The notes under the pieces were generated by a model. It saw only the letters and a list, made by a program, of their open reading frames with translations, was not told where the DNA came from and did no database searches. The translations under genes were made by a program, and so were the position numbers. A DNA stretch of 59,496 bases from Candidatus Thioglobus sp. (GTDB lineage Bacteria > Pseudomonadota > Gammaproteobacteria > PS1 > Pseudothioglobaceae). The first letter of the stretch is position 1. Each line of letters opens with the position of its first letter. The DNA is taken from the NCBI GenBank assembly GCA_012959965.1, contig DUCF01000088.1, forward strand, positions 1 to 59,496, read 5' to 3'. This document shows, one piece after another, positions 1 through 23,386 of this stretch.

Positions 1-499
1 CGAGAATCAACTTATCGTCCATTAACTGTTCTATATGGATATTAGGCTGGTGAATTGGACGATAAAGAATGGCCATATCAATATGACCGTCTCGAAGTTG
101 AGCCATCAAGGGGTCCGAATAATCACTGATTACTCTTGTTGCAATACTGGGTTCTGTTTTCCACATGATGTCTAGCCATTTGGTGGCAATATAATCCCAG
201 TGATTCATTTGAATGCCAAAACTAAAAACACCGGTCATATCGTCTGGTAAGGCAATTTCTTGACGCGCTCTTTCCCATGCTTGAACAGCGGCAACGGCGT
301 GCTTATGAAAAAGTCTGCCAGCGGTTGTTAGCTCACAACCGTTACGTTTTCTGATAATAAGTGCTTGGTTGAGTTGCTCTTCTAGCGCCTTGATTCTAGC
401 ACTGACAGTGGATTGAGTAACGTGTAATTTTTCGGCTGACGCTTGAAAGCTGCCAGATGAACTGACCTCTAAAAAAGTCCTCATATGCTCAATATTCAT
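1..499 (-). CDS. LysR-family transcriptional regulator (3' end cut by window edge)
   Basis: The minus strand is open from an ATG at 499 to the window edge, giving about 166 residues. The N-terminus begins MNIEHMRTFLEVSSSGSFQ and carries the LysR helix-turn-helix, including ASAEKLHVTQSTVSARIKALE. The start of the effector-binding domain follows. LysR proteins are usually about 300 residues, so roughly the C-terminal half is missing. The gene is divergent from the aldolase operon at 668, and a dyad lies between them, so it probably controls that operon in response to one of its substrates. The inducer cannot be read from the sequence. Confidence 0.9.
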   Translation of the reverse strand, partial: MNIEHMRTFLEVSSSGSFQASAEKLHVTQSTVSARIKALEEQLNQALIIRKRNGCELTTAGRLFHKHAVAAVQAWERARQEIALPDDMTGVFSFGIQMNHWDYIATKWLDIMWKTEPSIATRVISDYSDPLMAQLRDGHIDMAILYRPIHQPNIHIEQLMDDKLIL

Positions 500-667: not shown

Positions 668-1390
668 ATGAGTCTTGAACAAGAGCAAGAAAAAGTTAAG
701 ATTGACTTGGCAGCAATGTTTCGCCTAACCGCAATGAATGGTTGGGACGACACTATCTGGAATCACATTACTGCAAGAGTGCCGGGCTCGGCACACCATT
801 TTTACATGCATCGTTTTGGCCTAACTTACGAAGAAGTTTGTGCTTCAAATTTAATCAAGGTTGATGAAGAGGGTAATGTTCTAGAAGGTCCGAGCGATGT
901 CAATACAGCCGGTTTTATTATTCACAGCGCCATTCACCTCAATCACCCGAACAACAAATTTGTGTTTCATGCACACCCTGCGAGTGCAATTGCAGCCACA
1001 GCTTTTAAAGAAATTCCATTTTTAGTGCAGGATTCTGCGATGCTTTATGGGAAAGTCGGTTATCACGATTGGGAGGGTTTGTCGGTCGACCCAGATGAGC
1101 GCTTACGTATCGCTGATAATTTGGGCGACAATAGCTGTTTGGTGATGCGTAATCACGGCTTTTTGACGGTTGGCGATACTGCGGGTCAGTGCTTTATGCA
1201 TATGTATTATTTGATTCGCCTTTGTGAAGTGGCCCTTAGTGCCAAAGCCTCAAATTTGGAGATTGACAGCGGACCAGAACATCTTTGGCCAATTGCATCT
1301 AAGCAGTACGAGGCGTTTTCACCGGGTGTGTATGAGTGGCCGGGATTACTACGCCGTTGTGACCGATTAGATCCTTCATACAAACATTAA
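668..1390 (+). CDS. Class II aldolase/adducin family protein
   Basis: This 240-residue protein has the length and fold signature of the class II aldolase/adducin family. Those zinc enzymes cleave or decarboxylate phosphorylated or free hydroxy-acids. The probable zinc ligands are H101 and H103 in HAHPASAIAATA and H163 in NHGFLTVG. The acidic residue that fuculose-phosphate aldolase uses just before the F-x-x-H segment does not appear conserved (TAGFIIH here), so a standard aldol cleavage should not be assumed. It is the first gene of the operon running to 5357 and is followed after 2 bases by the oxygenase gene. The substrate is unknown. Confidence 0.85.
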   Translation: MSLEQEQEKVKIDLAAMFRLTAMNGWDDTIWNHITARVPGSAHHFYMHRFGLTYEEVCASNLIKVDEEGNVLEGPSDVNTAGFIIHSAIHLNHPNNKFVFHAHPASAIAATAFKEIPFLVQDSAMLYGKVGYHDWEGLSVDPDERLRIADNLGDNSCLVMRNHGFLTVGDTAGQCFMHMYYLIRLCEVALSAKASNLEIDSGPEHLWPIASKQYEAFSPGVYEWPGLLRRCDRLDPSYKH

Positions 1391-1392
1391 TA

Positions 1393-2277
1393 ATGTCCGT
1401 TATTTCAGCACCTTCCGCCTTTAGTGCTAACGAGATTAGACTGGAGGATTTTCTAGATTTAGAGCGATTTCCTATTCACGATTTAACCAGTGACAAAAGA
1501 GCTGCGCTTGTTGCGCAGTGTCATCAAAATCTTGAAAAGTGCGGTTGTGCCCATGTGCCGAATTTTATTATCCCCACTGCCATTAAAAAAATGAAGGAAG
1601 AGGCTTTTCGAATTATGGATGGGGCGAGGAGGGCGCATGCATGGGTGAATCCTTACCTTACCAAAGAAGACACCAGCTTGCCGAGCGATCATCCCAAGCG
1701 TTTTTTTGAAGAAAGAACTTCGTCCTTTATTAATTCCGATTTATTAGAGGCGGACTCGATTTTAAGAATGATTTACGACAGTGATGTGATGGTGCATTTT
1801 GTTTCTGATTGTCTGAATGTTGGACCTATTTATCGTTGGGCGGAGCCATTAGGGCGCAATCCGTATAGTGTAATGAAGGGCGGTGATTACTTTCCATGGC
1901 ATTTTGACGGCAATGACTTTACCGTGAGCATTCTTGTCAGCGAGGCTGAAGAAGGCGGTGATTTTGAGTACGCGCCCGATATTCGTTCTGCCAATAATGA
2001 GTGTTTTGACGATGTTGGTGCGGTCTTGCATGGTGCTCGAGAAAAGGTCCGGGTGCTGAGTTTACAAACGGGTGATTTGCAAATATTTAAAGGCCGTTAT
2101 TCGATGCACAGAGTCACGGTGACTCAAGGCTCGTCGCCACGAATTATTGCCCTACCAACCTATGTTACCAACCCGTATTTGGTTAATAGGCCGCACCACG
2201 CTGAAGCATTTTATGGGCGTTCAATGGATATTCACCACGAGCGTAATTTAGAGCGCGTTGACAACTTAACCGATTAA
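1393..2277 (+). CDS. 2-oxoglutarate/Fe(II)-dependent oxygenase-like protein
   Basis: This 294-residue protein carries the double-stranded beta-helix iron triad. H170 and D172 lie in WHFDGND and H239 in YSMHRVT. R250 in SPRIIALPTY is well placed to bind the 2-oxoglutarate carboxylate. Family members hydroxylate or oxidatively demethylate small acids and amines using O2. The start lies 2 bases after the aldolase stop, and the dehydrogenase gene follows after 11 bases, so the genes are probably co-transcribed. The neighbours suggest it hydroxylates a compound that the aldolase and dehydrogenases then process. The exact substrate is not deducible. Confidence 0.8.
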   Translation: MSVISAPSAFSANEIRLEDFLDLERFPIHDLTSDKRAALVAQCHQNLEKCGCAHVPNFIIPTAIKKMKEEAFRIMDGARRAHAWVNPYLTKEDTSLPSDHPKRFFEERTSSFINSDLLEADSILRMIYDSDVMVHFVSDCLNVGPIYRWAEPLGRNPYSVMKGGDYFPWHFDGNDFTVSILVSEAEEGGDFEYAPDIRSANNECFDDVGAVLHGAREKVRVLSLQTGDLQIFKGRYSMHRVTVTQGSSPRIIALPTYVTNPYLVNRPHHAEAFYGRSMDIHHERNLERVDNLTD

Positions 2278-2288
2278 GGAAAGATAAA

Positions 2289-3182
2289 ATGAATATTGGA
2301 TTTATCGGTCTTGGCAATATGGGTGCTGGAATGGCGCTCAATCTGCTTAGGCATTGCCAAGAGTCTGGCGACACACTCATTGTTTTTGATATTAATGAAG
2401 CAGTATTGGTGGATTTGATTGCCAAAGGCGCGGTTAATGGGCAGAGTGTTGCCAAGTTGTGCAGCCAGTGCGAGGTATTGTTTACCTCGCTACCAAGTTC
2501 CAAAGAGGTCAACCTTCTGGCTTTTGGTGATGACGGTATTCTTGCCATGCTTAAGGAGGGTGCGACCTGGTTTGAAACCAGCACCAATGAGTTATCAGAA
2601 TGGCAAAAAGTTAAAAACGAAGCGCCGATCCATCTAACCTTGGTCGATGCGCCAGTCAGTGGTGGTGCCGAGGGCGCCTTGGCAGGTACACTGGCGATCT
2701 TTCTCGGCATTGATGAAGGTGTGCTCAACCGGTTTGAGTCTTTATTGAGAAGCTTCGCTGCAAGGGTGGAGCGTATGGGTCCTTCTGGCGCCGGTTACGT
2801 CACTAAATTAGCGCAGCTGCATCTTAACTATTTGGTTGCCCAGGGTATTGGCGAAACACTGATGTTGGGCGCTAAAGCCAATTTAGATCTGGGTGTGTTA
2901 CACTCTGTCTTAATGAGTAGTTGCGCAAGAAGCTATGTTGTCGAAAGTTACATTCCAAAAGTTCTGGATGGTAGCTACGATACATCGTTTGCACTTGGTC
3001 TTGCGGAAAAAGACATGCGCTTAATTACCGAATTGGGCCAACATCTTGAGGTGAAAATGCCACTTGGTGACAAGGTCTATAGTACTTACCAAGCTGCAAT
3101 GAAGGCCTATGGAGAAAACGCTCCACATCTTAGTATTGTTCGTTTAATGGAAGAGCAGCATGATCAAATTTTGCGCAGTTAG
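2289..3182 (+). CDS. 3-hydroxyisobutyrate dehydrogenase family oxidoreductase
   Basis: This 297-residue beta-hydroxyacid dehydrogenase has an N-terminal dinucleotide-binding loop (GFIGLGNMGAGMALNLL, residues 4-20) and the substrate motif DAPVSGGAEGA near residue 120. The catalytic lysine is K173 in GYVTKLAQL. The asparagine normally found four residues after this lysine in HIBADH and GarR is a leucine here, so the substrate preference may differ. The gene sits in the operon between the oxygenase and the GhrA-like enzyme, preceded by an AAGGAAAG ribosome site. The family oxidises or reduces 3-hydroxyacids with NAD(P). Confidence 0.85.
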   Translation: MNIGFIGLGNMGAGMALNLLRHCQESGDTLIVFDINEAVLVDLIAKGAVNGQSVAKLCSQCEVLFTSLPSSKEVNLLAFGDDGILAMLKEGATWFETSTNELSEWQKVKNEAPIHLTLVDAPVSGGAEGALAGTLAIFLGIDEGVLNRFESLLRSFAARVERMGPSGAGYVTKLAQLHLNYLVAQGIGETLMLGAKANLDLGVLHSVLMSSCARSYVVESYIPKVLDGSYDTSFALGLAEKDMRLITELGQHLEVKMPLGDKVYSTYQAAMKAYGENAPHLSIVRLMEEQHDQILRS

Positions 3183-3196
3183 GGCGTACTGAAATT

Positions 3197-4129
3197 ATGG
3201 CATTACTTGTTAGCCTTACCGATACAGACATTGCGCCGTGGTTAAAAGTATTTCAAACGGAATTGAGTGGTATGGATATCCGAATTTACCCTGATGTGGG
3301 TGATCCATGCGACATTGAGTATGTTGCTGCCTGGCAACACCCTTTTTCTGAGTATAAAAAATACCCAAATTTAAAAGCTATCTTGTCACTCGGCGCAGGT
3401 GTGGATCACATCACCAAAGATCCAGAACTACCCAGTGGCATCCCTATCGTGCGAATGGCGGACAATGCTTTGACACGAGATATGTGCTTGTATGCACTTC
3501 ATTGGGTGCTGCATTTTCACAGTGATTACTATCGCTATGCTCAACAACAATCGAATAAGCAATGGCTGCCACAAGACTTTGTCTCACCAAGAGATCGTAC
3601 GATTGGTGTTATGGGCCTGGGTAATATTGGCAAACAAATCGCCGAGTCGCTGGCCACTCAAGGGTTTAATGTTGTTGGCTGGGGCGCAAGCGAAAAACAA
3701 ACAACTGGCTTGATTGAATACTTCCACGGGAAAGAGCAAATGAATGCTTTTTTAAATAAGGCTGAAATTTTGATTAATGTATTGCCACTCACCGATGCAA
3801 CCAGAAATAGAGTAACAGAAAGTGAATTACGTCAACTGCCGCAAGGTTCCTTTGTCATCAATATGGGCAGAGGTTGTATTGTGAATGAGAGCGATCTACT
3901 GTCTTTGCTTAATAGTGGTCATATTGCTGCGGCCGTTCTGGACGTATTTGACATCGAACCTTTGCCCGATGATAACCCGCTTTGGTCGCATCCAAGCGTT
4001 ACCATTACCCCGCATATTGCCGGTCAAAGCGATGGTGAAACAGCGGCAATGTTCATGGTTGATAATATTCGCAGAATAGAGCACGGTGAAGCGCCATTTC
4101 CGCTTTACGACCCCGTTCTGGGCTATTAA
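3197..4129 (+). CDS. ghrA: Glyoxylate/hydroxypyruvate reductase A-like 2-hydroxyacid dehydrogenase
   Basis: This 310-residue D-isomer-specific 2-hydroxyacid dehydrogenase has the length and motifs of the GhrA group. The NAD(P) loop is GVMGLGNIGKQIAE. The catalytic arginine lies in NMGRGCIVNE, the glutamate in DVFDIEPLP and the histidine in TPHIAGQ. GhrA enzymes reduce glyoxylate and hydroxypyruvate in the cytoplasm. Placement between a 3-hydroxyacid dehydrogenase and a DddP-like gene suggests it handles a 2-oxoacid made by this operon. The upstream gap is 14 bases. The family call is firm; the physiological substrate is not. Confidence 0.82.
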   Translation: MALLVSLTDTDIAPWLKVFQTELSGMDIRIYPDVGDPCDIEYVAAWQHPFSEYKKYPNLKAILSLGAGVDHITKDPELPSGIPIVRMADNALTRDMCLYALHWVLHFHSDYYRYAQQQSNKQWLPQDFVSPRDRTIGVMGLGNIGKQIAESLATQGFNVVGWGASEKQTTGLIEYFHGKEQMNAFLNKAEILINVLPLTDATRNRVTESELRQLPQGSFVINMGRGCIVNESDLLSLLNSGHIAAAVLDVFDIEPLPDDNPLWSHPSVTITPHIAGQSDGETAAMFMVDNIRRIEHGEAPFPLYDPVLGY

Positions 4130-4154: not shown

Positions 4155-5357
4155 ATGACAAAACTATTACCAAGCCCTCAGATTTCTGAAAGCAGGTGGA
4201 AGAAAATGTGTGACTATCGTCTGGCAAGATTGCGTCAGATTATGTCGGATAAAAACGTTGATTTATGCATACTGGCAAATCCAATCAGTTTGCGATACGC
4301 TATTGATTTCAATGAATACCAAGTCTTTCAAGCGCACATCCCCACCTGTTATTTGTTTGTGCCATTGGAGGGGCCACTTGTCATGCATGGCGCGACCAGC
4401 CAAGAGTTTCCTAATGTTGCAAGCTATCAGCGCCCTCGCTTTGTTAGTCCTTTTGATGGCGGTTTTGATTTAAATGACAAAACACGTCTTTTTGCCGATG
4501 ACGTTAAATCGCTTTTTGGGGGCGATCACCTCAAATCTGCCCCCGCCAGAATTGCGCTTGAACGATTTACGCCGCTTGCAACTCAAGCGCTAGAAGCTCT
4601 TGGCTTTGAGGTGGTTGATGCCGATTGTATTGTTGAACAGGCCAAAGTCATTAAGTCTGATACAGAGATTGAGTGCATTAAACACTCGATTGCAGTGACA
4701 GAGTACGGCATGAAGCTAATGCAAGAAAACACTAAAGCCGGCATGACGGAGCGCCAACTCTGGTCAATTCTTCATCAAGTGAATGTCGCCAATAATGGCT
4801 GCTGGATGGAGGGTCATATGCTCTCATCCGGGCCCCGTACTAACCCTTGGCTGCAAGAGGCAACGGAACGTGTTATCGAACAAGGAGACATGATTGCTTT
4901 TGATACCGACCTCATCGGCCCAAGAGGCTATATGGCAGATATTTCCAGATCCTGGATATGCGGTGGTGGTGTCGGTACACAAGCACAAAGAGACGCTTAT
5001 CAGCATGCTTTTGATGAGGTGCAGTTCAATATAGACATTATCAAGCCGGGTATGGGTTTTGCCGAATTGGCCGAACATGCCTTTAAGCGTAAGAAAATAT
5101 ATCAACACAATCACTACGTTTGCGTTTATCACGGTGCAGGCCTTTCGGATGAATATCCCAAAATATACTACCAAGACGATTGGGCTAGAGATGGTTATGA
5201 CGGCATTGTAGAGCCTAATACGGTTTTATGTGTGGAAAGCTACTCAGGTGCAAAAAATGGCATTGTTGGTGTCAAGCTTGAGCAAATGGTTCTGGTGAAT
5301 GAAACTGGCATCGAGGTGTTAACGCATTACCCATTCGAAGATAATTTAATTCAATAG
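4155..5357 (+). CDS. dddP: DddP-like M24-fold enzyme (candidate DMSP lyase)
   Basis: This 400-residue pita-bread (M24) protein closely resembles the iron-dependent DMSP lyase DddP, which splits dimethylsulfoniopropionate into DMS and acrylate. Shared stretches include LSSGPRTNPW, AFDTDLIGPRG and HGAGLSDEYP. The candidate metal ligands are D250, D252, D262, H326, E361 and E376. They correspond to the DddP residues I remember as D295, D297, D307, H371, E406 and E421, with a constant offset of 45, meaning no gaps across the catalytic region. It is the last gene of the 668-5357 operon, just upstream of gcvTHP. An M24 peptidase or amidase of unknown substrate is the alternative. No acrylate-handling gene (acuI, acuN) is visible nearby. 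The DddP numbering is from memory, not from an alignment. Confidence 0.65.
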   Translation: MTKLLPSPQISESRWKKMCDYRLARLRQIMSDKNVDLCILANPISLRYAIDFNEYQVFQAHIPTCYLFVPLEGPLVMHGATSQEFPNVASYQRPRFVSPFDGGFDLNDKTRLFADDVKSLFGGDHLKSAPARIALERFTPLATQALEALGFEVVDADCIVEQAKVIKSDTEIECIKHSIAVTEYGMKLMQENTKAGMTERQLWSILHQVNVANNGCWMEGHMLSSGPRTNPWLQEATERVIEQGDMIAFDTDLIGPRGYMADISRSWICGGGVGTQAQRDAYQHAFDEVQFNIDIIKPGMGFAELAEHAFKRKKIYQHNHYVCVYHGAGLSDEYPKIYYQDDWARDGYDGIVEPNTVLCVESYSGAKNGIVGVKLEQMVLVNETGIEVLTHYPFEDNLIQ

Positions 5358-5519: not shown

Positions 5520-6656
5520 ATGGGTCTTGCGATGACAGAAACTATAAATGAATTCACTACAGCGTTTTATCAAATGCATATTGATGCTGGCGCGAAAATG
5601 GTGCCTTTTGCGGGCTATGACATGCCTGTTAGTTATCCGTTGGGTGTAAAAAAAGAACATTTACATACACGCGAGAAGGTCGGCCTTTTTGATGTCTCAC
5701 ATATGGGGCAAGTCAAGCTAATTGGTGAAAATGCAAAAAAAGCATTAGAGTCTTTAGTGCCAGTCGATATTATTGATTTGCCATTAATGAAGCAACGCTA
5801 CGCGCTATTTACCAACGACAAGGGCGGCGTTCTTGATGATCTTATGGTAACAAATATTGGCAATGACAGCTTGTTGTTGGTGGTCAATGCTGGCTGCAAA
5901 CAGGCGGATTTTGCTCATTTGCAGAATACTATTGGCAATGAGTGTGAAGTGAAAGTGTTGGAGGATTACGCACTACTAGCTTTGCAAGGGCCACAGGCTG
6001 GCGAAGTGTTGGCGGCGTTGGCGCCAGAATCCCGTGAAATGACTTTTATGACGGCTAAAGTTTTAATGATTGATGGTATTGATTGCTTCGCCACGCGATC
6101 GGGCTACAGCGGCGAAGACGGTTTTGAGATTTCTGTTCACAACGACCAAGCGCAACAACTAGCCAAATGTCTTTTGGCGCATGAGGCTGTTGAGTGGATT
6201 GGTCTTGGTGCTAGAGATTCTCTGCGTTTAGAAGCGGGCTTGTCTCTTTACGGCCACGAATTGGATACAGAACACAGCCCGGTGGAATCTTCGCTTGTTT
6301 GGGCCTTGTCAAAAGTGAGAAGATCTGACGGCTCTCGTGCCGGCGGATATCCCGGTGCGATGACTGTCATGAATCATATTGATGCCGGTGTGGCGCAAAA
6401 AATTGTCGGTCTTCAGCCAGAGGGCAGAGCGCCTGTACGTGATGGCGTGGAGATCGTTGATGACGATGATAATGTTGTTGGCAAAGTCACTAGTGGTGGC
6501 TTCGGACCGACAACTGGCAAGCCCATTGTTATCGCCAGAATTGAATCTGCGGCGAGTGATGGCACAAAAAAACTCTTCGCTATTGTGCGTGAGAAAAAAC
6601 TTGCAGTTGAAGTGGTCAAACTGCCATTTGTAAAAACCAATTATTACCGTGGCTAA
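5520..6656 (+). CDS. gcvT: Glycine cleavage system T protein (aminomethyltransferase)
   Basis: This 378-residue T protein transfers the methylene group from the H-protein aminomethyl arm to tetrahydrofolate, releasing ammonia. The N-terminal region (MVPFAGYDMPVSYP, VGLFDVSHMGQ) and the later GYSGEDGFEI and GARDSLRLEAGL segments are standard for GcvT. I kept the ATG at 5520, which follows GAAGAG at a good distance; the ATG at 5532 is an alternative that removes four residues. gcvH and gcvP follow directly. The related DMSP demethylase DmdA was considered and is unlikely given the complete gcvTHP context. Confidence 0.95.
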   Translation: MGLAMTETINEFTTAFYQMHIDAGAKMVPFAGYDMPVSYPLGVKKEHLHTREKVGLFDVSHMGQVKLIGENAKKALESLVPVDIIDLPLMKQRYALFTNDKGGVLDDLMVTNIGNDSLLLVVNAGCKQADFAHLQNTIGNECEVKVLEDYALLALQGPQAGEVLAALAPESREMTFMTAKVLMIDGIDCFATRSGYSGEDGFEISVHNDQAQQLAKCLLAHEAVEWIGLGARDSLRLEAGLSLYGHELDTEHSPVESSLVWALSKVRRSDGSRAGGYPGAMTVMNHIDAGVAQKIVGLQPEGRAPVRDGVEIVDDDDNVVGKVTSGGFGPTTGKPIVIARIESAASDGTKKLFAIVREKKLAVEVVKLPFVKTNYYRG

Positions 6657-11602: not shown

Positions 11603-14600
11603 ATGACGAGTGAAGCAACCCCCATAAGCAATAACAAATGGCAATTTTGGATTGATCGTGGCGGCACCTTTACCGATGTTATTGGTAAAAGCCCTGCTGG
11701 GCAGGTTACAAGTCATAAACTGTTGAGTGAAAACCCTGACCAGTATAAGGATGCCGCCATTCAAGGCATTAGAGATTTGCTTGAACTTGGGAGTGATGAG
11801 AGTATACCCATGGATAAAATCGATGCTATAAAAATGGGTACTACGGTCGCTACAAACGCCTTGCTTGAGCGTGACGGCGAGAAAACATTGCTTGCGATTA
11901 CTAAGGGTTATAAGGACATATTACGTATAGGCTATCAGCAAAGACCTAAGCTATTTGCCCTTGATATTCAACTGCCAGATATGCTTTACAGCGATGTTGT
12001 TGAAATTGAAGAGCGAATAGATGTTCATGGCGATATTATCAAAGAACTGGACCAGTGTTATTCGACTAAGCAACTGCAAAAAGCATTTGATGGGGGTTAT
12101 CGATGCATTGCAATCGTATTGTTACACGGATATCGTTATCAACAGCACGAGTTGCAATTAAAGGGCATTGCAGAAACGATAGGGTTCGAACAAATATCGG
12201 TAAGTCACGAGGTAAACCCCTTAATGAAAATTGTTCCAAGAGGTGACACAACCGTTGTGGATGCATATCTTTCGCCAATACTTAGGCGTTATGTAGAACA
12301 GGTCGAGAGTGCTCTGGGCAGCGCAGGTGCTGAGAAAGGCAAGCTTATGTTTATGCAATCTAATGGCGGCTTAACAGATGCGCGTTTTTTCCAAGGTAAA
12401 GATGCGATATTGTCTGGCCCTGCCGGCGGTGTTGTTGGTATGGTAAAAGTGGCTGAAAAAGCTGGATTCTATAAGCTAATCGGTTTCGATATGGGTGGCA
12501 CATCAACGGATGTTTCCCACTATGCAAACGACTACGAGCGAACGTCTGAAACACTAGTGGCCGGTGTGCGTGTTAGGGCGCCGATGATGTTAATACATAC
12601 TGTTGCTGCTGGTGGTGGCTCCATTTTGCACTTTGACGGTGCACGCTATCGCGTTGGGCCAGAATCTGCTGGCGCCAACCCTGGTCCAGCCTGCTATCGA
12701 AATGATGGCCCTCTAACAGTGACAGATTGTAATGTTATGCTGGGTAAATTAAAAACCGAGTTTTTCCCTAAGGTATTTGGACCTAATGCAGATCAGGGGC
12801 TTGATGTTGATGTGGTTGAGCAAAAATTTAAGCAACTCTCAAGTGAAATATCTGCGGCAACACAAAAGCCAATCACAGTGACTGAAGTGGCCGAAGGTTT
12901 CCTCTCGGTTGCCATCGACAGCATGGCAAATGCCATCAAAAAAATATCGGTTGAACGAGGTTATGACGTGAGTGATTACACACTTTCTTGTTTCGGTGGC
13001 GCTGGCGGTCAACATGCTTGCTTGGTTGCAGACAGTCTTGGCATACAACGCATCCATCTACACCCTTTTGCTGGCGTTTTATCTGCTTTTGGTATGGGTC
13101 TTGCAGACACAAGGACAATCAAAGACTTGGCAATAGAGCTAACCTTAGATCCCTGCGTTGTAGAAGGCTTACACGCACATTTTTCCGATTTGCAAACGCA
13201 GGGCGTTAATGATATGACAGCGCAAGGCTTAGAGGCTAACAAGCTATCGTTTGCTCGTCGTGTTTATCTCCGGTACAAAGGCTCTGATAGTGCTTTGGCG
13301 GTTAGTTTTGGGGGTTGTGATAAGTTAAATTACGATTTTGAGGTCATCCATAAGGCCCGATTTGGCTTTACTTCACCGGAAAAAGCCTTGATAGTTGAAT
13401 CTATTCAAATAGAAGTGTCTTGTGAGAATGAAAAAAGCAACTTGGTCGGGCATCGAATGAGTCCAAAGGTAACAACTAAAGCAGCTACATTGCCGGTGAT
13501 AATCGGCGGCAAGGAGTACGATACGCCGCACTACCTTCGCGATGATATTGCCAGTGATGATGCTATCGATGGCCCCGCAGTCATTATTGAGTCAACTTCA
13601 ACTATTGTCATTGAGCCGGGTTGGCAAGGAACCATTCGAAAAGAAAACGATCTTGTTCTGGAAAGAGTCGAGCCATTAGTGAGAGATAGTGCGATTGGCA
13701 CTGATGTTGATCCTGTGATGTTGGAAATTTTTAACAACTTGTTTATGAGTGTTGCCGAACAAATGGGTACAGTGCTTGAAAATACAGCATCATCAGTTAA
13801 TATTAAAGAGCGCTTGGATTTTTCGTGTGCACTGTTTTCCGCGAGAGGAGATTTGGTTGCCAATGCGCCTCATGTGCCTGTCCATCTTGGTTCAATGAGC
13901 GAATCAATTAAAACAATTATTCGAGAGAACGGCGAGACAATGTCTCCCGGTGATGCGTTTTTAATCAACGCGCCGTACAACGGCGGCACTCACCTCCCTG
14001 ATATTACCCTTATCAAGCCTGTGTATGACGAGCAGAATAAGGAGGTTATTTTTTACGTTGCAACTCGTGGCCACCACGCCGATATCGGTGGTACCGTGCC
14101 AGGCTCTGCGCCGGCATATTCCACGCATGTCAGCGAAGAGGGTATTTTAATTGATAACTTTACTTTGGTTTCAAAAGGTGTTTTCCTTGAGAGAGAAGTC
14201 AAAGAGTTGCTTTGTTCTGGCGAGTATCCTGTCAGAAATATCCAGCAAAATATTGCCGATCTAAAGGCACAAGTGGCGGCAGCCGAAAAAGGCGCTCAAG
14301 AGCTGCTCCTTGTGATTCGACACTATGGCTTGGATGTTGTTCATGCATACATGCAGCACGTTCAAGATAATGCCGAGGAGACTGTGAGACGTGTACTGGA
14401 TGTGTTGAGTGATTCAAGCTATAGTTACAAAATGGATGATGGTCATCAGATATGTGTCGCCATTACTGTGAACAAAACACAAAGAGCAGCCACCATAGAT
14501 TTTACTGGGACTAGCGATCAACATCCAAGTAACTATAATGCACCAAGGGCTATCTGTCAGGCAGCAGTGCTTTATGTTTTTCGTTGTATGGTTGATGACG

Positions 14601-15247
14601 ATATTCCCCTTAATGCTGGCTGCCTTAAACCTCTCAAGCTGATTATTCCTCAGCGCTCAATTATTAATCCGGAGTATCCAGCCGCAGTTGTTGCCGGCAA
14701 TGTTGAAACGTCACAATATATTGTTGATACGCTGTTTGGCGCCCTGGGTGTTGTTGCGGCTTCACAGGGTACTATGAATAACTATATTTGGGGAAACGAG
14801 CGTATACAAAACTACGAAACGATTTGTGGTGGTGCCGGAGCAAGTGCAAAGCAGGCGGGTTGTGATGCGGTTCATACTCATATGACAAACTCGAGGATTA
14901 CGGATCCTGAAGTATTGGAGTGGCGCTTTCCGGTGCGCTTAGAGTCATTCTCAATTCGCAAAAACTCTGGCGGTAAAGGCCTTAATAAAGGCGGTGAAGG
15001 CGTTGATCGACGCATGCGGTTTTTGGAGTCGATGACCGTTAACATGATTGCAGGGCATCGAGTTGTTCCTCCGTATGGGCTTTCTGGTGGAGGCACTGGT
15101 GCTTTGGGTGAGAACTACGTTATCCATGCCGATGGCAAACAAACAGATTTAGGAACCAAGGGTCAGATAGAAGTAGTGAAAGACGACGTCTTTGTTCTAA
15201 AAACACCTGGTGGCGGTGGTTTTGGAAAATCAATAAACGAATTATAG
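11603..15247 (+). CDS. Fused HyuA-HyuB hydantoinase/5-oxoprolinase family protein
   Basis: This 1214-residue protein joins both subunits of the ATP-dependent hydantoinase/oxoprolinase family. The HyuA half (about residues 15-690) has the ATPase-type motifs DRGGTFTDVIG and GFDMGGTSTDVS. The HyuB half (about 700-1210) begins DPVMLEIFNN and includes SCALFSARGDLVANAPH. Single-chain forms are typical of 5-oxoprolinase, while N-methylhydantoin amidohydrolase, acetone carboxylase and others are often split. The creatinase and sarcosine oxidase genes downstream make N-methylhydantoin, a creatinine breakdown product, an attractive substrate, but 5-oxoproline cannot be excluded. It leads a tight operon running to 19463 and has its own AT-rich promoter region. 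Confidence 0.88.
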   Translation: MTSEATPISNNKWQFWIDRGGTFTDVIGKSPAGQVTSHKLLSENPDQYKDAAIQGIRDLLELGSDESIPMDKIDAIKMGTTVATNALLERDGEKTLLAITKGYKDILRIGYQQRPKLFALDIQLPDMLYSDVVEIEERIDVHGDIIKELDQCYSTKQLQKAFDGGYRCIAIVLLHGYRYQQHELQLKGIAETIGFEQISVSHEVNPLMKIVPRGDTTVVDAYLSPILRRYVEQVESALGSAGAEKGKLMFMQSNGGLTDARFFQGKDAILSGPAGGVVGMVKVAEKAGFYKLIGFDMGGTSTDVSHYANDYERTSETLVAGVRVRAPMMLIHTVAAGGGSILHFDGARYRVGPESAGANPGPACYRNDGPLTVTDCNVMLGKLKTEFFPKVFGPNADQGLDVDVVEQKFKQLSSEISAATQKPITVTEVAEGFLSVAIDSMANAIKKISVERGYDVSDYTLSCFGGAGGQHACLVADSLGIQRIHLHPFAGVLSAFGMGLADTRTIKDLAIELTLDPCVVEGLHAHFSDLQTQGVNDMTAQGLEANKLSFARRVYLRYKGSDSALAVSFGGCDKLNYDFEVIHKARFGFTSPEKALIVESIQIEVSCENEKSNLVGHRMSPKVTTKAATLPVIIGGKEYDTPHYLRDDIASDDAIDGPAVIIESTSTIVIEPGWQGTIRKENDLVLERVEPLVRDSAIGTDVDPVMLEIFNNLFMSVAEQMGTVLENTASSVNIKERLDFSCALFSARGDLVANAPHVPVHLGSMSESIKTIIRENGETMSPGDAFLINAPYNGGTHLPDITLIKPVYDEQNKEVIFYVATRGHHADIGGTVPGSAPAYSTHVSEEGILIDNFTLVSKGVFLEREVKELLCSGEYPVRNIQQNIADLKAQVAAAEKGAQELLLVIRHYGLDVVHAYMQHVQDNAEETVRRVLDVLSDSSYSYKMDDGHQICVAITVNKTQRAATIDFTGTSDQHPSNYNAPRAICQAAVLYVFRCMVDDDIPLNAGCLKPLKLIIPQRSIINPEYPAAVVAGNVETSQYIVDTLFGALGVVAASQGTMNNYIWGNERIQNYETICGGAGASAKQAGCDAVHTHMTNSRITDPEVLEWRFPVRLESFSIRKNSGGKGLNKGGEGVDRRMRFLESMTVNMIAGHRVVPPYGLSGGGTGALGENYVIHADGKQTDLGTKGQIEVVKDDVFVLKTPGGGGFGKSINEL

Positions 15248-15256
15248 GAGAAAGAA

Positions 15257-16408
15257 ATGGCCATTCATTTTAGTAGGAAAGAGTTTAATAACCGTCAAGC
15301 CAAAGCAATCAGGGCACTCAATGAGAGGGGTCTTGACGGCTTATTAATGTTCCGCCAAGAAAGTATGTACTACCTCAGCGGCTACGACAGTTTCGGTTAC
15401 GCCATGTTTCAATGTCTGTATCTGGGCGCAGATGGGCGCATGGTGTTGTTGACGCGTGCACCAGATCTTGCACAGGCTGAGTTAACATCCATTCTTGATG
15501 ACATTCGCATTTGGAAGGATGAGGCTGGGATGAATCCAGCTCAGAATCTAAAAAAACTACTAAAAGAGCTGAATTGCGACAATAAGAATTTGGGTATCGA
15601 GTACGACAGCGTTGGCTTGACGGCACACAATTACCGCTTAGTAGACAACGCTTTAGCTGGGTTTTGTGAGCTAAGTGACGCCTCCGACTTGGTTAACAAG
15701 CTGCGCTACATCAAGAGTGAGACGGAGCTTACTTATATTCGAAAGGCAGCAGAACTTGCTGATGATGCTTATGATGCTGGGGTGAAATTAACCAAAGCTG
15801 GTGCTTTTGAAGGCGATATTTTGGCAGCGATGCAAGGTGCAGTTTTTCAGGGGGGTGGCACCTACGCCGGCAATGAATTTATTATTGGCTCTGGAGAACA
15901 CGCACTACTGTGTCGTTACCACGCCGGACCTCGTCAGCTTGATGCTGTCGATCAAATGACTTTGGAGTGGGCAGGCTGTTATCGGCGCTATCATGCTGCT
16001 ATGATGCGCACCGTACTCATAGGCGAAGCTCAACCGGAGCACCATCATATGCACTCAGTAGCGACCGATGCATTGCTTGCCTGTGAAGAAGCGTTAAAGC
16101 CTGGGAATACCCTTGGAGATGTTTTTGCAGCGCATGCAGGTGTCATGGATGCCGGCGGATTAAGAGAGCATCGATTAAACGCTTGTGGTTATACTATGGG
16201 GTGTGCATACGCACCGATCTGGGTTGATTACCCAATGATTTTTGAGAATAACCCGATGCTGGTAGAAGAGAATATGGTGTTCTTTTTACATATGATTGTG
16301 ATGAACCGAGACAATCGCCTGGCGATGTGCCCTGGCCATTCTGTGATTATTGGCGCGAATGGCGCTGAACGCCTTAGTCGTACACCACTTGACTTGGAGA
16401 TTAAATAA
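15257..16408 (+). CDS. Creatinase/ectoine-hydrolase-like M24 protein lacking metal ligands
   Basis: This 383-residue pita-bread protein starts after an AGGAG site, 9 bases behind the hydantoinase gene. All five canonical M24 metal ligands look replaced. The usual D-x(10)-D becomes E237 and A248 (LEWAGCYRRYHAAMMRT), the histidine loop reads GYTMGCAYAPIW, and the two late glutamates are absent. H222 in RYHAGPR occupies the position of the catalytic histidine of creatinase. Creatinase and the ectoine hydrolase DoeA are known metal-free or metal-depleted members that cleave non-peptide C-N bonds. I infer a hydrolase for a guanidino, carbamoyl or cyclic amide compound, possibly the product of the fused hydantoinase. 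It is clearly not the main creatinase (19580). Confidence 0.75.
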   Translation: MAIHFSRKEFNNRQAKAIRALNERGLDGLLMFRQESMYYLSGYDSFGYAMFQCLYLGADGRMVLLTRAPDLAQAELTSILDDIRIWKDEAGMNPAQNLKKLLKELNCDNKNLGIEYDSVGLTAHNYRLVDNALAGFCELSDASDLVNKLRYIKSETELTYIRKAAELADDAYDAGVKLTKAGAFEGDILAAMQGAVFQGGGTYAGNEFIIGSGEHALLCRYHAGPRQLDAVDQMTLEWAGCYRRYHAAMMRTVLIGEAQPEHHHMHSVATDALLACEEALKPGNTLGDVFAAHAGVMDAGGLREHRLNACGYTMGCAYAPIWVDYPMIFENNPMLVEENMVFFLHMIVMNRDNRLAMCPGHSVIIGANGAERLSRTPLDLEIK

Positions 16409-16411
16409 CCC

Positions 16412-16927
16412 GTGAGTTCAAAAGATCAATCAATCGTCTCTTCCTCGCATCTTGCCCAAGGAGTAGGTGGAGTACTTTCCGAAGTTGAGTACGGCATTAT
16501 AATTGCCAGCAATGCCATGCAAAACTGGATTGTCAGGTGCATGGTTGCAGCCGGCGGCCCTGAAAAAGTAACTTACACAGACTCTCTCGTGTTGCACAAT
16601 GTTTATCATCGAAATCGTGCCAAGCGCCTTGCGGATATTTGTTTTACCCTCAATATTGAAGACTCTCACACTGTCGCCTATGCATTAAGAAAATTACACA
16701 AGTTGGCGCTTATTGAGGTTGAAAAACGAGGTAAAGAAAGCTTTTACCAAGTGAGCAAACAGGGTAGAAAAATCTGTGAAAGGTATGCCGAAATCCGCCA
16801 GCAGTGTTTGGTGGAAGCGTTGGGTGACCTGTGTAATGATAATCAAGATTTGCACGAGGTTGCTCGACTACTTAGGACCCTATCGGGACTCTATGATCAA
16901 GCTGGTCGTGCCGCTACTTCATTATGA
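16412..16927 (+). CDS. Winged-helix (MarR-like) transcriptional regulator
   Basis: This 171-residue protein uses a GTG start 3 bases after the preceding stop. A winged-helix core spans about residues 55-120: RAKRLADICFTLNIED, then a recognition helix in SHTVAYALRKLHKLALIE, then a wing with KRGKESFYQVSKQG. This resembles MarR-like regulators found beside DUF1989 genes, and here the stop overlaps the DUF1989 start by four bases (ATGA). It probably regulates its own operon, with the inverted repeat at 11553-11582 as a candidate operator. The ligand is unknown. Confidence 0.72.
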   Translation: MSSKDQSIVSSSHLAQGVGGVLSEVEYGIIIASNAMQNWIVRCMVAAGGPEKVTYTDSLVLHNVYHRNRAKRLADICFTLNIEDSHTVAYALRKLHKLALIEVEKRGKESFYQVSKQGRKICERYAEIRQQCLVEALGDLCNDNQDLHEVARLLRTLSGLYDQAGRAATSL

Positions 16928-17787
16928 AACACAAACCACAAAATCCAAAACCGGCTGATGTACAAGATCGGCTTGGTAGTACTGCTGTTATTTCTTATCC
17001 TACAAACTCACTGCCGCCAGCGGATATGGCGATGTACCAAAAGGCCAGGGAGAATATGACCTTGGTTGATGAGATACTCATTCCGCCTAAAGAGGCTAAA
17101 ACTTTCTGCGTAGCAGCAGGGCATTTTTTTCGTATTGTCAGTGTTGAAGGGCCTCAAGTTGGCGATTTAAACCTTTGGCATAAGGACGATTTGAGCGAGC
17201 GCTTTTATTCCGGTAAGACTCGAGCGCTTTACGGCACCCATGTCAGTACCAGCGACCGACTCTGGAGTAACTTTCCGTATCTCAGGCCAATCGCTACAAT
17301 CACTTACGACACTCTTGATTGGTATGGTTGGGATGAAGATGGTGGCAGTGTTCACGATGTTATTGGTACGCGCTGCGATCCTTATACCCATATGGCGCTT
17401 AATAACCAAAACTATCATTATTGTTGTCACTCGAATTTATGCAGAGCAATGGCTGCTTATGAAGACAAGTCGATTGACGAAATTGAGCGTTTAGTACACG
17501 ATGTTTTAAACGTCTTTATGTGTACCGGCTTTACCAAGGATACGCACCAATATTTTATGAAGGCAAGCCCGGTAAGGCCCGGTGATTTCATTGAGTTTTT
17601 TGCGGAGGTTGGCTTACTTGGCGCTCTATCAGCATGCCCTGGTGGGGATTGCAGCAGCACGCATTCCAGCGACTCTGCAGCTTGTTTTCCACTCAAGGTG
17701 GAGATCTACAAGCCTCAAGCAGGGACTCTCGTTGACTGGTCCTCGCCAAAGGTTAATGCCTATTCAGGCCAGCACGGTTGCTCATGA
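16924..17787 (+). CDS. DUF1989 (urea carboxylase-associated) family protein
   Basis: This 287-residue protein belongs to the DUF1989 or urea-carboxylase-associated family. Recognisable segments are VEGPQVGDLNLW, DVIGTRCDPYTH and YYCCHSNLCRAM with clustered cysteines. Some family members (CgdA/CgdB) are known as carboxyguanidine deiminase subunits in guanidine degradation. No urea or guanidine carboxylase gene is present here, so this is a solo member. Position next to hydantoinase and creatinase-type genes suggests hydrolysis or deimination of a guanidino compound such as a creatine or creatinine derivative; this is inference. Its stop overlaps the GMC oxidoreductase start by four bases. Confidence 0.82.
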   Translation: MKHKPQNPKPADVQDRLGSTAVISYPTNSLPPADMAMYQKARENMTLVDEILIPPKEAKTFCVAAGHFFRIVSVEGPQVGDLNLWHKDDLSERFYSGKTRALYGTHVSTSDRLWSNFPYLRPIATITYDTLDWYGWDEDGGSVHDVIGTRCDPYTHMALNNQNYHYCCHSNLCRAMAAYEDKSIDEIERLVHDVLNVFMCTGFTKDTHQYFMKASPVRPGDFIEFFAEVGLLGALSACPGGDCSSTHSSDSAACFPLKVEIYKPQAGTLVDWSSPKVNAYSGQHGCS

Positions 17788-19463
17788 GTGAGTCTGTAGA
17801 AGAAAGCACAGCGCAAAAGCAGGATAAGGCGCCAAAATCAAGCCAGTACGACTACATCATTGTTGGTGCGGGAGCTGCAGGTTGCGTGCTGGCCAATCGA
17901 CTCAGCGAAAATCCCGAGAATTCAGTGTGCTTAATCGAAGCGGGTGGTAGTGATAAAAGCCCGTGGATTCAGATACCTGCTGGTATTTTTGGGCTTTACG
18001 GCAATAAAAAATACGACTACGCTTACCAAGGCGTGCCACAAAAACACTTAAATAACCGCATAATTACGATAAACCGTGGCAAGTGCCTCGGCGGTTCGAG
18101 TGCTATTAATTCCATGGTCTATATTCGTGGCAACAAGCAAGATTATGACCATTGGGTGGACTTGGGTTGTGAGGGTTGGTCTTATGACGATGTTTTGCCA
18201 ATTTTTAAAGATTTAGAGAGGGATTGCACAGGGGGCGATGCCAATTTTCATGGAGTCGAGGGTGAGTTATCGGTTGTTAATCCACAAGATGTCAACGCTG
18301 CAGCCAAGCGATTTGTGCGTGCAGGCGCTGAAGCGGGTTTGTCGGAAAATGCTGACTTTAATGCAGGCTCGCAAATAGGTCTAGGTATTTATAAGGTGAC
18401 ACAAAATAATGGCGTGCGTGTCAGCGCCTACTCGGCTTTTATTAAGCCCATTGCGCGTCGACCAAATCTTCGAGTGATTAGCGACACGAAAGTCTTCTCC
18501 CTTGACATTGAGGGAGATATTGTCAAAGCGGTGAACATTAAAATTGACACATTTGACTACAAACTAAAATGTGGAGAGGAGGTAATGCTCTGTGCTGGCG
18601 CCATCGATTCACCTAGATTGTTGTTAAGTTCCGGCATCGGCAATAAAAAAGAGCTTGAGGAGCTGGGTATTGAATGCAAGAAGGATCTCGCTGGCGTGGG
18701 TGAGAATCTACAAGACCACTTGGACTCCATGGTTACCGTCAGGTCAAGTAAGGCAGAGTCTATTGGCATCTCTTGGCGCAGTTTATTGAGTCGTGTTCTA
18801 CCAGCGCCCTTTCGCTACTACTTCAAAAAAATGGGCTGGTGGACAACCAATTATGTCGAGGCCGGTGGTTTTGCCAAAACCCAAAGTATGAGTGACGATT
18901 TGCCCGATGTTCAATTTCACTTTACCCCGATTTATAGAAGCCATCGCGGCAGGAAATTTGAGTTTGGCCATGGCTATTCATTGTTTACTTGTCTATTACA
19001 GCCTTACAGTGTTGGCAGTATTAAACTTGCAAAAGATAACGACGATTTAAAGCTATTGATAGATCATAATTTTCTCTCAGATTCAAGGGATGAAGTTGCG
19101 ATAATTGAGGCATTAAAAAAAGCCAGAGAGATATTGGGATCATCAGAATTTAATGCTGTTTGCGGTAAAGAAATGGCGCCCGGCAAAGACGTGCAAAGTG
19201 ATGAGCAAATACTGCAGTATTTGCGCAACACAGCAACTACTGTTTTTCACCCGGTTGGCACTTGTAAAATGGGGATTGACGATCTGGCTGTCGTTTCTCC
19301 AAAGGACTTAAAAGTTAGAGGAATGAATAACTTACGTGTTATCGACGCCTCCATAATGCCACGCATTATCAGGGGCAATACTGCGGCTGCAACGATGATG
19401 ATCGGTGAAATGGGCGCGCGGATGATATTGGCCGATCAGCGGCTTAAACAAGAAGAAACTTAA
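17784..19463 (+). CDS. GMC-family FAD oxidoreductase (choline dehydrogenase-like)
   Basis: The ATG at 17784 forms an ATGA overlap with the preceding stop and is preferred to an in-frame TTG two codons upstream. The resulting protein is about 559 residues. The FAD loop is IIVGAGAAGCVLANRLSE, followed by the GMC signature GGSSAINSMVYIRG. The C-terminal active-site region contains FHPVGTCKMG. Family members oxidise alcohols such as choline and related hydroxy compounds to aldehydes. No betaine aldehyde dehydrogenase is adjacent, so choline oxidation is only one option. It closes the operon 11603-19463, followed by a weak hairpin. Confidence 0.88.
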   Translation: MSESVEESTAQKQDKAPKSSQYDYIIVGAGAAGCVLANRLSENPENSVCLIEAGGSDKSPWIQIPAGIFGLYGNKKYDYAYQGVPQKHLNNRIITINRGKCLGGSSAINSMVYIRGNKQDYDHWVDLGCEGWSYDDVLPIFKDLERDCTGGDANFHGVEGELSVVNPQDVNAAAKRFVRAGAEAGLSENADFNAGSQIGLGIYKVTQNNGVRVSAYSAFIKPIARRPNLRVISDTKVFSLDIEGDIVKAVNIKIDTFDYKLKCGEEVMLCAGAIDSPRLLLSSGIGNKKELEELGIECKKDLAGVGENLQDHLDSMVTVRSSKAESIGISWRSLLSRVLPAPFRYYFKKMGWWTTNYVEAGGFAKTQSMSDDLPDVQFHFTPIYRSHRGRKFEFGHGYSLFTCLLQPYSVGSIKLAKDNDDLKLLIDHNFLSDSRDEVAIIEALKKAREILGSSEFNAVCGKEMAPGKDVQSDEQILQYLRNTATTVFHPVGTCKMGIDDLAVVSPKDLKVRGMNNLRVIDASIMPRIIRGNTAAATMMIGEMGARMILADQRLKQEET

Positions 19464-19478
19464 CGAAATAACTTGAAT

Positions 19479-19503
19479 AAAAGATAATTAAATCTTTTTT
19501 TTA
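19479..19503 (+). terminator. Weak AT-rich hairpin with T-tract after the GMC gene
   Basis: AAAAGAT (19479-19485) and ATCTTTT (19492-19498) form a 7-bp stem with a 6-base loop, followed by more T residues. The stem has only one G-C pair, so termination would be inefficient. It lies between the GMC stop and the creatinase promoter. Confidence 0.4.
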
Positions 19504-19521
19504 TTTTGTTAAAGAAAGAAC

Positions 19522-19550
19522 TTGCCTTTCGTAGAGAACTTGATTAATAT
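19522..19550 (+). promoter_or_regulatory. Candidate sigma-70 promoter for the creatinase gene
   Basis: TTGCCT at 19522-19527 and TAATAT at 19545-19550 are separated by exactly 17 bases. They lie 30 bases before the creatinase ATG, which has a GGAGAAGG ribosome site. This suggests the creatinase-to-HD gene segment can be transcribed independently of the hydantoinase operon. Confidence 0.55.
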
Positions 19551-19579
19551 CCGCATTTTTTGACTATCTGGAGAAGGGT

Positions 19580-20788
19580 ATGAATATGCCAAGAACGAAA
19601 ATCATTCCAAACGGCAATAAGGCTGTTCACACATTTAGTGACGGTGAATTTCAAAATAGACAGGCAAAGCTTCGAGCGCATATGGCTGTACATAATATTG
19701 ATGCAGTTATCCTTACTTCTATCCACGGTATTAATTATTACAGTGATTTTCTTTACTGTTCATTCGGTCGCCCTTACGCGTTGGTTGTTACACAGGATAA
19801 AGCCACAACTGTTACGGCAAATATTGACGGTGGACAGCCGTATCGCCGTACTTTCGGTGAAAACTTGGTTTATACCGATTGGCAAAAAGACAGTTTCTTC
19901 TATGCGCTGCAGACACTTGTTGCCAATAAAGGAAAAATTGGTATTGAGTATGATCATATTACTATGGAGCGCCTGAACAAACTCCAATGCGCTTTTGACA
20001 AGGCGCAACTTGTTGATATTTCTGTTGATTGTATGAACATGCGCTCGATTAAATCGGACGAAGAAATTGCCCATATTATTCATGGCGCTAATATTTGTGA
20101 CATTGGTGGTGCAGCCCTGGTTGAAGCAATTAAAGAGGGCGCTCCAGAGCATGAGGTTGCGCTTCACTCAACACAGGCAATGGTTAGAGAGACCGCCATA
20201 AGATTTCCGAATTCTGAATTAATGGATACTTGGACTTGGTTTCAGTCTGGCATTAATACCGATGGTGCTCATAATCCGGTCACCACTCGACAAGTGAAAA
20301 AAGGCGACATTCTTAGCCTTAATTGTTTCTCTATGAATTCTGGCTACTATGTCGCACTTGAGCGCACATTGTTCTTCGATCATGTTGACGACGCATCGTT
20401 GAAGCTTTGGGAAGTGAATGTGAAAGTGCACGAAGAAGGTATGAAGCTTATCAAGCCTGGTGTGGCTTGTAGAGACATTGCGCTTGAACTAAACAAGATA
20501 TTTGAAGAGTACGGCTTACTTGAATCTCGCACCTTTGGTTACGGCCACTCGTTTGGTGTTCTGTCGCATTACTACGGTCGTGAGGCTGGTGTTGAGCTGC
20601 GCGAGGATATTGATACCGTTTTGCAAAAGAACATGGTGGTCTCAATGGAGCCGATGATTATGATTCCTGAAGGACAAGCTGGAGCTGGCGGATATCGCGA
20701 GCACGACGTGTTGGTAATCACCGAGGACAGTGCTTATGACATTACTGAATTTCCGTACGGTCCGGAGCACAATATCATAGCCAGCTAA
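19580..20788 (+). CDS. Creatinase (creatine amidinohydrolase)
   Basis: This 402-residue protein matches Pseudomonas creatinase along its length, as far as I recall that sequence. Shared stretches include YYSDFLYCSFGRPYALVV, ELMDTWTWFQSGINTDGAHN and GYGHSFGVLSHYYGREAG. The catalytic histidine is H231 (H232 in P. putida), and the substrate-binding glutamates fall at E261 and E357 (E262 and E358), a constant one-residue offset. The enzyme hydrolyses creatine to sarcosine and urea in the cytoplasm and needs no metal. Sarcosine oxidase genes follow at 22136, giving a direct route to glycine. No urease or urea amidolyase gene is in the window, so the fate of urea is unknown. Confidence 0.95.
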   Translation: MNMPRTKIIPNGNKAVHTFSDGEFQNRQAKLRAHMAVHNIDAVILTSIHGINYYSDFLYCSFGRPYALVVTQDKATTVTANIDGGQPYRRTFGENLVYTDWQKDSFFYALQTLVANKGKIGIEYDHITMERLNKLQCAFDKAQLVDISVDCMNMRSIKSDEEIAHIIHGANICDIGGAALVEAIKEGAPEHEVALHSTQAMVRETAIRFPNSELMDTWTWFQSGINTDGAHNPVTTRQVKKGDILSLNCFSMNSGYYVALERTLFFDHVDDASLKLWEVNVKVHEEGMKLIKPGVACRDIALELNKIFEEYGLLESRTFGYGHSFGVLSHYYGREAGVELREDIDTVLQKNMVVSMEPMIMIPEGQAGAGGYREHDVLVITEDSAYDITEFPYGPEHNIIAS

Positions 20789-21004
20789 GTGCATGGTTTA
20801 TTTCGATTTTATCGATTGAATAATGTAATCATACAACTCAAGCTTCACTGATAAAATTCGCAATTTTTATAGCTGCTTAAATACAATTGGTTTGAAAGTA
20901 GCTTAGAGTTGATTTGTAGCATTCCCAAGATGGCTTTGAAAGGGGCGGCTATCGTTATAGACTGCTACAATGATGGTTTTTTCTTGATGTCTTGCACAGT
21001 AAAT

Positions 21005-22114: not shown

Positions 22115-22135
22115 AATTTTAGATAGAGTTATATT

Positions 22136-23386
22136 ATGCAAAAAAAATATTCTTGGTATTCGTTATTAAAAGCAGGCTTAAGCGGCCAAGACTGGGATCA
22201 GGCGATTCCACTGGTCGAGCCCAAGTCGAAATACGACGTCATTATTATTGGCGGCGGCGGTCACGGTTTAGCGACCGCTTATTATTTGGCAAAAGAGTGC
22301 GGCATTACTAATATTGCCGTTGTTGAAAAAGGCTATATTGGTGGTGGTAATACCGCTAGAAACACCACCATCATTCGCTCTAACTATTTGCGAGATGAGG
22401 CCTCTAGTCTTTACGAGCATTCCATGCAATTATGGGAAGGCATTAGTGAAGATTTAAATTTTAATGTGATGTTTTCTCAGCGTGGTGTTTACAATCTTGG
22501 CCATACGCTGCAAGACATGCGTGATATTGAGCGTCGAGTGAACGCCAACATGCTCAATGGTGTTGATGCTCAAGTGGTAACCGCAAAAGAAATTAAAGAG
22601 CAAATTCCAATTATTAACACCTCTCAGAATGCCAGATACCCTATTATGGGCTCTTCTTATCAGCCACGTGGCGGCGTAGCAAGACACGATGGTGTTGCCT
22701 GGGGTTTTGCCAGAGCGGCCGCAATGCTTGGTGTGGATATTATTCAAGATTGCGAAGTGATTGGAATTGAGGTAGAGGAGGGTCGCGTTAAGGGTGTTAA
22801 CACCACTCGTGGTGACATTATGGCAGACCGTATTGGTTGCGTCAGTGCGGGACACTCTTCAGTGATAGCAAAAATGGCCGGCCTAAGGTTGCCAGTTGAA
22901 AGCCATCCTTTGCAAGCATTTGTTTCGGAAGCAATGAAGCCAGTTTTACACACCGTTGTTATGTCAAATGCGGTGCATGGCTATATCTCCCAAAGTGATA
23001 AGGGTGATTTAGTTATCGGTGCTGGCATCGATGGCTACAGTTCCTACGCACAGCGTGGTGCTTCACGAATTATTGAGCATTCAGCGGCCGCTATATTGGA
23101 AATGTTCCCGATATTTTCGCGCGTTCGTATGAATCGCCAGTGGGGTGGTATTGTTGATGTTTGCCCTGATGCTTGTCCGATTATCAGTCCAACGAAAATA
23201 CAAGGTTTGTACTTTAATTGTGGCTGGGGAACGGGCGGCTTTAAGGCAACACCAGGATCGGGTCATGTATTTGCGCATACCATTGCACAAGACAAGCAGC
23301 ACCCATTAGCAAAGCCATTCCATTTAGACCGTTTCACCACAGGCGCGCTCATTGATGAGCACGGCGCTGCTGGTGTGGCACATTAA
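22136..23386 (+). CDS. soxB: Sarcosine oxidase beta subunit
   Basis: This 416-residue protein is the catalytic flavin subunit of heterotetrameric sarcosine oxidase. The FAD loop is [17 protein letters not shown] (residues 36-52). H184 in [12 protein letters not shown] is at the place of the histidine that holds FMN covalently in characterised enzymes. The complex oxidises sarcosine with O2 to glycine, H2O2 and, with folate, 5,10-methylene-tetrahydrofolate. The order soxB-soxD-soxA-soxG follows with gaps of 15 and 5 bases and then an 8-base overlap. Confidence 0.96.

Follow-up and report, generated by a model that had tools for sequence, protein, structure and literature searches.

The window analysed here, the whole stretch of 59,496 nucleotides from Candidatus Thioglobus sp., encodes a protein (P0001) that belongs to a DddP-related lineage separate from DddP itself and situated in gene clusters that probably serve the breakdown of betaine-like osmolytes. 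With a probability of roughly 0.55, P0001 is a DddP-like dinuclear-metal enzyme whose substrate is a zwitterion of the betaine type and not DMSP, and which is encoded in a betaine-catabolic operon; calling it a DMS-producing gene is probably a mistake. The observations behind this reading include the kinship in fold, the metal ligands, the catalytic base and tyrosine, the loss of the M24 histidine, the replacement of a tryptophan by phenylalanine, the clade and the gene neighbours. The genome is that of a Thioglobus (SUP05 cluster) of 1.79 Mb and 99.7% completeness, and the genus is reported to be abundant in polar surface waters (PMC10030565). The gene and its neighbours are:

1-499, minus strand: LysR-type regulator, cut by the contig start and divergent from the operon (97% identity to an uncut LysR at the syntenic position in genome G019)
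668-1390, plus strand: class II aldolase/adducin family protein of the PRK07044 type (NCBIfam NF005451 over cut-off, PF00596)
1393-2277, plus strand: HalD-like Fe(II)/2-oxoglutarate (2OG) oxygenase with an HxD motif, WHFDGN (PF23169, motif)
2289-3182, plus strand: beta-hydroxyacid dehydrogenase of the HIBADH / tartronate semialdehyde reductase family (profile matches)
3197-4129, plus strand: GhrA-like 2-hydroxyacid dehydrogenase (profile match)
4155-5357, plus strand: P0001, M24-fold protein of 400 aa, DddP superfamily, clade A (open reading frame, PDB matches to DddP, PF00557, tree, AF2 model)
5520-6656, plus strand: gcvT, first gene of gcvTHP, after a gap of 162 bp

The reading frame of P0001 is intact, with an ATG start, 400 codons and a stop at 5357, and it is under purifying selection (dN/dS 0.055-0.115 against orthologs of 68-90% identity, for which dS is not saturated). 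In a phmmer search of the PDB with P0001, the first four sequences were DddP (4rzy, E=1.5e-65; 4b28, E=1.7e-62), and the fifth, a Xaa-Pro aminopeptidase at 8e-13, was the next M24 protein after them. The protein scores 85.4 bits on PF00557 (M24 fold; gathering score 23). Likewise, the AF2 monomer built from 11 sequences (pLDDT 75, pTM 0.78) matched the four DddP structures first, with TM 0.84-0.85, followed by creatinase, prolidase and DoeA. The kinship between P0001 and DddP is one of homology and not of chance. Residues 56-61, 218-236 and 330-333 of the model have pLDDT <50, and given this low confidence in the active-site loops the model is not used for the geometry of the pocket.

The earlier note had recognised a DddP-like protein with the metal ligands of DddP in exact register, and the alignment to RlDddP bears this out. 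With an offset of 45 throughout, D250, D252, D262, H326, E361 and E376 of P0001 correspond to D295, D297, D307, H371, E406 and E421, which are the ligands listed by Hehemann et al., 2014 (PMC4108388). The same offset holds for Y321 and D332, which correspond to Y366 and D377; in DddP, Tyr366 and Asp377 are proposed catalytic residues, D377 as the base, and H371 is a ligand (PMC4108388). The stretches SGPRTNPW and FDTDLIG, called near-identical in the note, are in fact identical to RlDddP. The codons concerned are:

4326-4328, plus strand: F58, at the position of DddP Trp95 (alignment columns)
4851-4853, plus strand: L233, where ordinary M24 enzymes have their catalytic His and DddP has F278 (alignment)
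4902-4940, plus strand: metal ligands D250 (4902), D252 (4908) and D262 (4938) (alignment to DddP)
5115-5150, plus strand: Y321 (Y366 of DddP, 5115), H326 (ligand H371, 5130) and D332 (base D377, 5148) (alignment; roles in DddP from PMC4108388)
5235-5282, plus strand: metal ligands E361 (5235) and E376 (5280) (alignment to DddP)

The complete ligand set is no sign of DddP as such. Among 110 proteins of the DddP superfamily, gathered from relatives of the window, from its class and phylum and from named plasmids, all but one carry the six ligands, rhizobial proteins included. The set is complete even in clades E (n=8) and F (n=9), in which the proposed base Asp377 is Gly. The ligands thus mark membership in the superfamily only and do not diagnose a DMSP lyase, and as proof of such activity they were rejected. 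In members of clades E and F, such as L099 5401-6717 and L094 9851-11155, the Trp95 position is held by Tyr, Phe or Asn.

A review states that a conserved tryptophan and a tyrosine bind the DMSP sulfur in DddP. The tryptophan that contacts the sulfonium is taken to be Trp95, as reportedly described by Wang et al., 2015. This column holds Trp in 73/73 proteins of clades B-D, with 32/32 in clade B, and Phe in 16/17 of clade A; P0001 itself has Phe58 at this position. The catalytic histidine of M24 proteins, which precedes the first metal Asp and is present in three of four outgroup M24 proteins of the same genus, is replaced by Leu233 in P0001. Every clade of the DddP superfamily has Phe, Tyr, Met or Leu in this column, and a histidine occurs only in the outlier L108. 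Its loss across all clades fits the lack of dipeptidase (Val-Pro) activity in RlDddP (PMC5395565), which also argues against peptidase chemistry on the DddP scaffold. The outlier (L108 5635-6957) further has Trp, Thr and Gly in place of Tyr366, Asp377 and the ligand E406, respectively, and is probably inactive or of different chemistry.

The alignment and tree that had been proposed as a check went against placement with DddP. FastTree on 114 rows and IQ-TREE on 55 rows, neither set holding the verified fungal DddP sequences, agree in placing P0001 in clade A (support 100/98) and outside DddP proper, which is clade B (100/100). Clade B contains the structures 4rzy and 4b28, a protein annotated as dddP on an Oceanisphaera plasmid and those matches of the phylum sample that exceed the NCBIfam cut-off. 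The group of clades B, C and D excludes clade A with a support of 99/96 (IQ-TREE). Uniting A and B in one clade is rejected (61 log units worse, AU p 0.0037), and constraining P0001 alone into B is 352 log units worse (p 3e-57). When the long-branched outgroup was removed, A and B remained separate groups, each with a support of at least 100/99. On the DddP equivalog model NF043017, P0001 reaches 274.8 bits against a cut-off of 600, and the clade B matches in the phylum sample reach at least 634. P0001 shares with DddP (RlDddP 4rzy, RdDddP 4b28) the M24 'pita bread' fold, the six ligands, Tyr366 and Asp377, and the missing M24 histidine; it differs in clade, equivalog score and the Trp95 residue, the three tested features of DddP that it lacks, as well as in its overall identity of 33%, in having GH/GR for TR after Glu264 and in its betaine-type operon with a 2OG oxygenase.

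The gene arrangement described earlier, an aldolase, a 2OG oxygenase and two hydroxyacid dehydrogenases ahead of the M24 gene, was recovered with gaps of 2-25 bp, in the order divergent LysR, class II aldolase, HalD-like 2OG oxygenase, HIBADH, GhrA and M24. Among the neighbourhoods of the 17 clade A genes, the aldolase and the HIBADH-type gene each occur in 9/17 and the GhrA-like gene in 8/17, and similar LysR genes stand beside members of clades A, E and F. The 2OG oxygenase belongs to the same Pfam family as the HalD-family Fe/2OG enzymes (PF23169) but keeps HxD, and its matches in the PDB are at chance level only. HxD is the hydroxylase-type triad, unlike that of halogenases; judged by this motif, the enzyme should hydroxylate and not halogenate. 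The gcvT gene does come next, as had been pointed out, but this adjacency is confined to Thioglobus and was not seen elsewhere among the lineages; gcvTHP was rejected as part of the unit, and gcvT is probably not a member of the operon. No transporter adjoins the P0001 gene in the window, and the operon contains no acrylate genes.

Further along, the window holds a dense methylated-amine region (11603-23386). It includes a caprolactamase/hydantoinase-like protein, a DoeA-like M24 protein (15257-16408), a BetA-like GMC oxidoreductase (17778-19463), another M24 protein (19580-20788), a GbcB-like reductase (20909-22114) and a sarcosine oxidase beta (22136-23386).

The suggestion that the context could mean a different substrate is well supported. 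The betaine-type operon is common to Thioglobus, Marinomonas, Pseudomonas and others. The pathway unit recurs in Thioglobus, Marinobacterium, Marinomonas, Oceanospirillaceae and Pseudomonas. Related Thioglobus clusters add an enolase-superfamily enzyme (nearest to TalrD/mandelate racemase) and an FrhB-like iron-sulfur protein, whose genes often directly adjoin the M24 gene. The clade A locus of Marinobacterium jannaschii has 2OG, FrhB and LysR genes, and the cluster of Marinomonas MED121 has a BCCT transporter that scores 532 bits on the betaine BCCT model, under the equivalog cut-off of 650. Similarly, the Antarctic Pseudomonas MPC6 carries 2OG-M24-FrhB, GhrA, an enolase member, ProVWX and BCCT, and on two Mesorhizobium plasmids a clade A gene lies near ProXVW and a trimethylamine-methyltransferase-family gene. 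Marinomonas, Pseudomonas and Mesorhizobium therefore all have betaine transporters of the BCCT or ProU type flanking the cluster. A module of FAD oxidoreductase, 2Fe-2S protein, FAD oxidoreductase and RidA was seen near the clade A gene of Pseudomonas MPC6 (L088 2005-5224) and also near the annotated dddP of the Oceanisphaera plasmid (L091 227-3478).

The HalD-like oxygenase is a neighbour of 12/17 proteins in clade A, 7/9 in clade F and 2/8 in clade E (21/34 in all), as against 0/30 of DddP proper and 1/71 of clades B/C/D, some of the C loci being short-flanked (Fisher p 2.7e-12); these and all other neighbour counts are uncorrected for shared ancestry. Clade E and F genes often follow directly behind the oxygenase gene, in one case with an enolase-superfamily gene after them (L182). 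Members of clades C and D adjoin MttB-family and FAD-GcvT genes or GbcA-like Rieske monooxygenases, and quaternary-ammonium catabolism is the common theme outside DddP proper. The literature searched on homarine and proline betaine operons, PMC3950512 (proline betaine) not included, yielded no M24 or DddP-like step.

These features suggest a lineage, clade A, that would have split off the ancestors of DddP before DddP arose. P0001 would be a homodimeric, dinuclear-metal enzyme of the M24 fold, and its operon would serve the breakdown of an imported betaine-type zwitterion, a quaternary ammonium or sulfonium carboxylate distinct from DMSP. The HalD-like oxygenase and the enolase-superfamily enzyme may make or modify the substrate of P0001, in an order of steps that is only presumed. 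The two metals would hold the substrate carboxylate; by analogy with DddP, Asp332 would then deprotonate the alpha carbon, and a leaving group (amine, sulfide or oxygen) would depart from the beta position. The aldolase and the two hydroxyacid dehydrogenases would finish the carbon skeleton. As clades E and F have the 2OG oxygenase and lack the D377 base, the shared chemistry may not depend on D377. A bolder and rather doubtful extension is that clade A and its sister clades form a family of metal-dependent betaine lyases, which would use DddP-type chemistry to eliminate an amine from quaternary ammonium acids. DddP, the DMSP lyase most abundant in the sea, would then descend from a C-N lyase of this kind, recruited once Trp95 had taken the place of Phe or Tyr.

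'DddP-like' in the earlier note holds, and it is the description as a DMSP lyase candidate that is weak on the grounds of clade, score (275/600 bits), the Phe and the operon. Even so, P0001 could in principle be a divergent but functional DddP yielding DMS and acrylate from DMSP (or DMSOP), as its ligands, Tyr366 and Asp377 are all conserved. Divergence alone does not exclude such activity, since E. coli produced DMS with a fungal DddP that is only 32% identical to RdDddP, close to the level of P0001 (PMC4108388). Thioglobus also handles DMSP: a DmdA encoded in the genome of P0001 passes the model cut-off, and the genus is reported to have dmpX transporters (PMC10030565). This explanation is nevertheless unlikely, given the position of P0001 outside the DddP clade at 275 of 600 bits, the Phe at the Trp95 position across clade A, an operon with oxygenase, aldolase and hydroxyacid dehydrogenases instead of acrylate genes (the best AcuI match of the genome is below cut-off and lies away from the operon) and the presence of clade A relatives in soil and nodule bacteria.

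Less probable again is a hydrolase of the creatinase or ectoine-hydrolase type, which would cleave a C-N bond by metal-bound water. Creatinase and the ectoine hydrolase DoeA, both non-peptidase M24 proteins, share the fold and the two-domain layout with P0001 and belong to the structural matches that follow those to DddP; their substrates are small nitrogenous zwitterions. Genes of the hydantoinase type occur close to clade A genes both in the window and in the Mesorhizobium loci, and the window has its own DoeA-like M24 protein. P0001 is, however, only 16-19% identical to these enzymes and has lost the catalytic histidine, and its Asp252 and Asp332 (D297 and D377) are DddP-type additions; the missing dipeptidase activity of DddP itself (PMC5395565) is a further point against hydrolysis. 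The most improbable of these alternatives is that P0001 acts as an eliminase, dehydratase or isomerase on a hydroxylated carboxylate that is not an onium compound and is made later in the pathway. The sugar-acid-type neighbours (TalrD-like enolase member, GhrA, HIBADH and aldolase) would suit it, and Phe in place of Trp weakens the best-known contact to the cation, but P0001 retains aromatic faces in Phe58 and Tyr321, and several lineages have betaine-type transporters beside the gene. The preferred reading remains a DddP-like enzyme for a betaine-type zwitterion other than DMSP.

The genome contains two more DddP-like paralogs, nearer to DddP, which makes three in all with none over the cut-off. 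One of them, C78 (L001:1432-2748), scores 464 bits on the DddP model and is 44% identical to RlDddP; the other, C49 (L002:1411-2431), is cut by a contig end and scores 357 bits. Each stands behind a near-identical MttB-family gene. C78 and other clade C/D proteins share with P0001 the superfamily, the ligands and the base, and differ in keeping Trp95 and in lying beside MttB-family, FAD-GcvT, MDR and hydroxyproline-dehydratase-like enolase-superfamily genes. A homolog of TMAO demethylase elsewhere in the genome (G000:C55:245-2538) is spread over two open frames, which match profile positions 7-490 and 510-762, and is either split or frameshifted.

The clade A gene belongs to the accessory genes of the genus, being full-length in 6/28 other genomes, many of which are incomplete, and represented by fragments only in two (G001 and G006). 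The G006 fragment is a 27-residue scar with a stop (G006:C23:17073-17153) between HIBADH and an APS-kinase-like gene, and that of G001 is an 81-residue C-terminal piece (G001:C4:833-1075). Much of the cluster is left around both, and these fragments beside cluster parts imply that the M24 step may be dispensable.

The practical point concerns the annotation of DddP-like genes below the cut-off. DddP is reported to make up about 65% of the marine ddd genes (PMC10686828), and in at least one global ocean survey the HMM threshold for DddP was E <= 1e-30 (PMC8520302), which P0001-like proteins would probably pass. Of 398 evenly sampled Pseudomonadota genomes, 41 have a match at E <= 1e-50 and 17 have one over the DddP cut-off, which leaves 24/41 with none over it. 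If such genes below the cut-off act on betaines, the potential for DMS production would be overcounted. The clade A lineage also offers a way of tracing the origin of the DMSP lyase.
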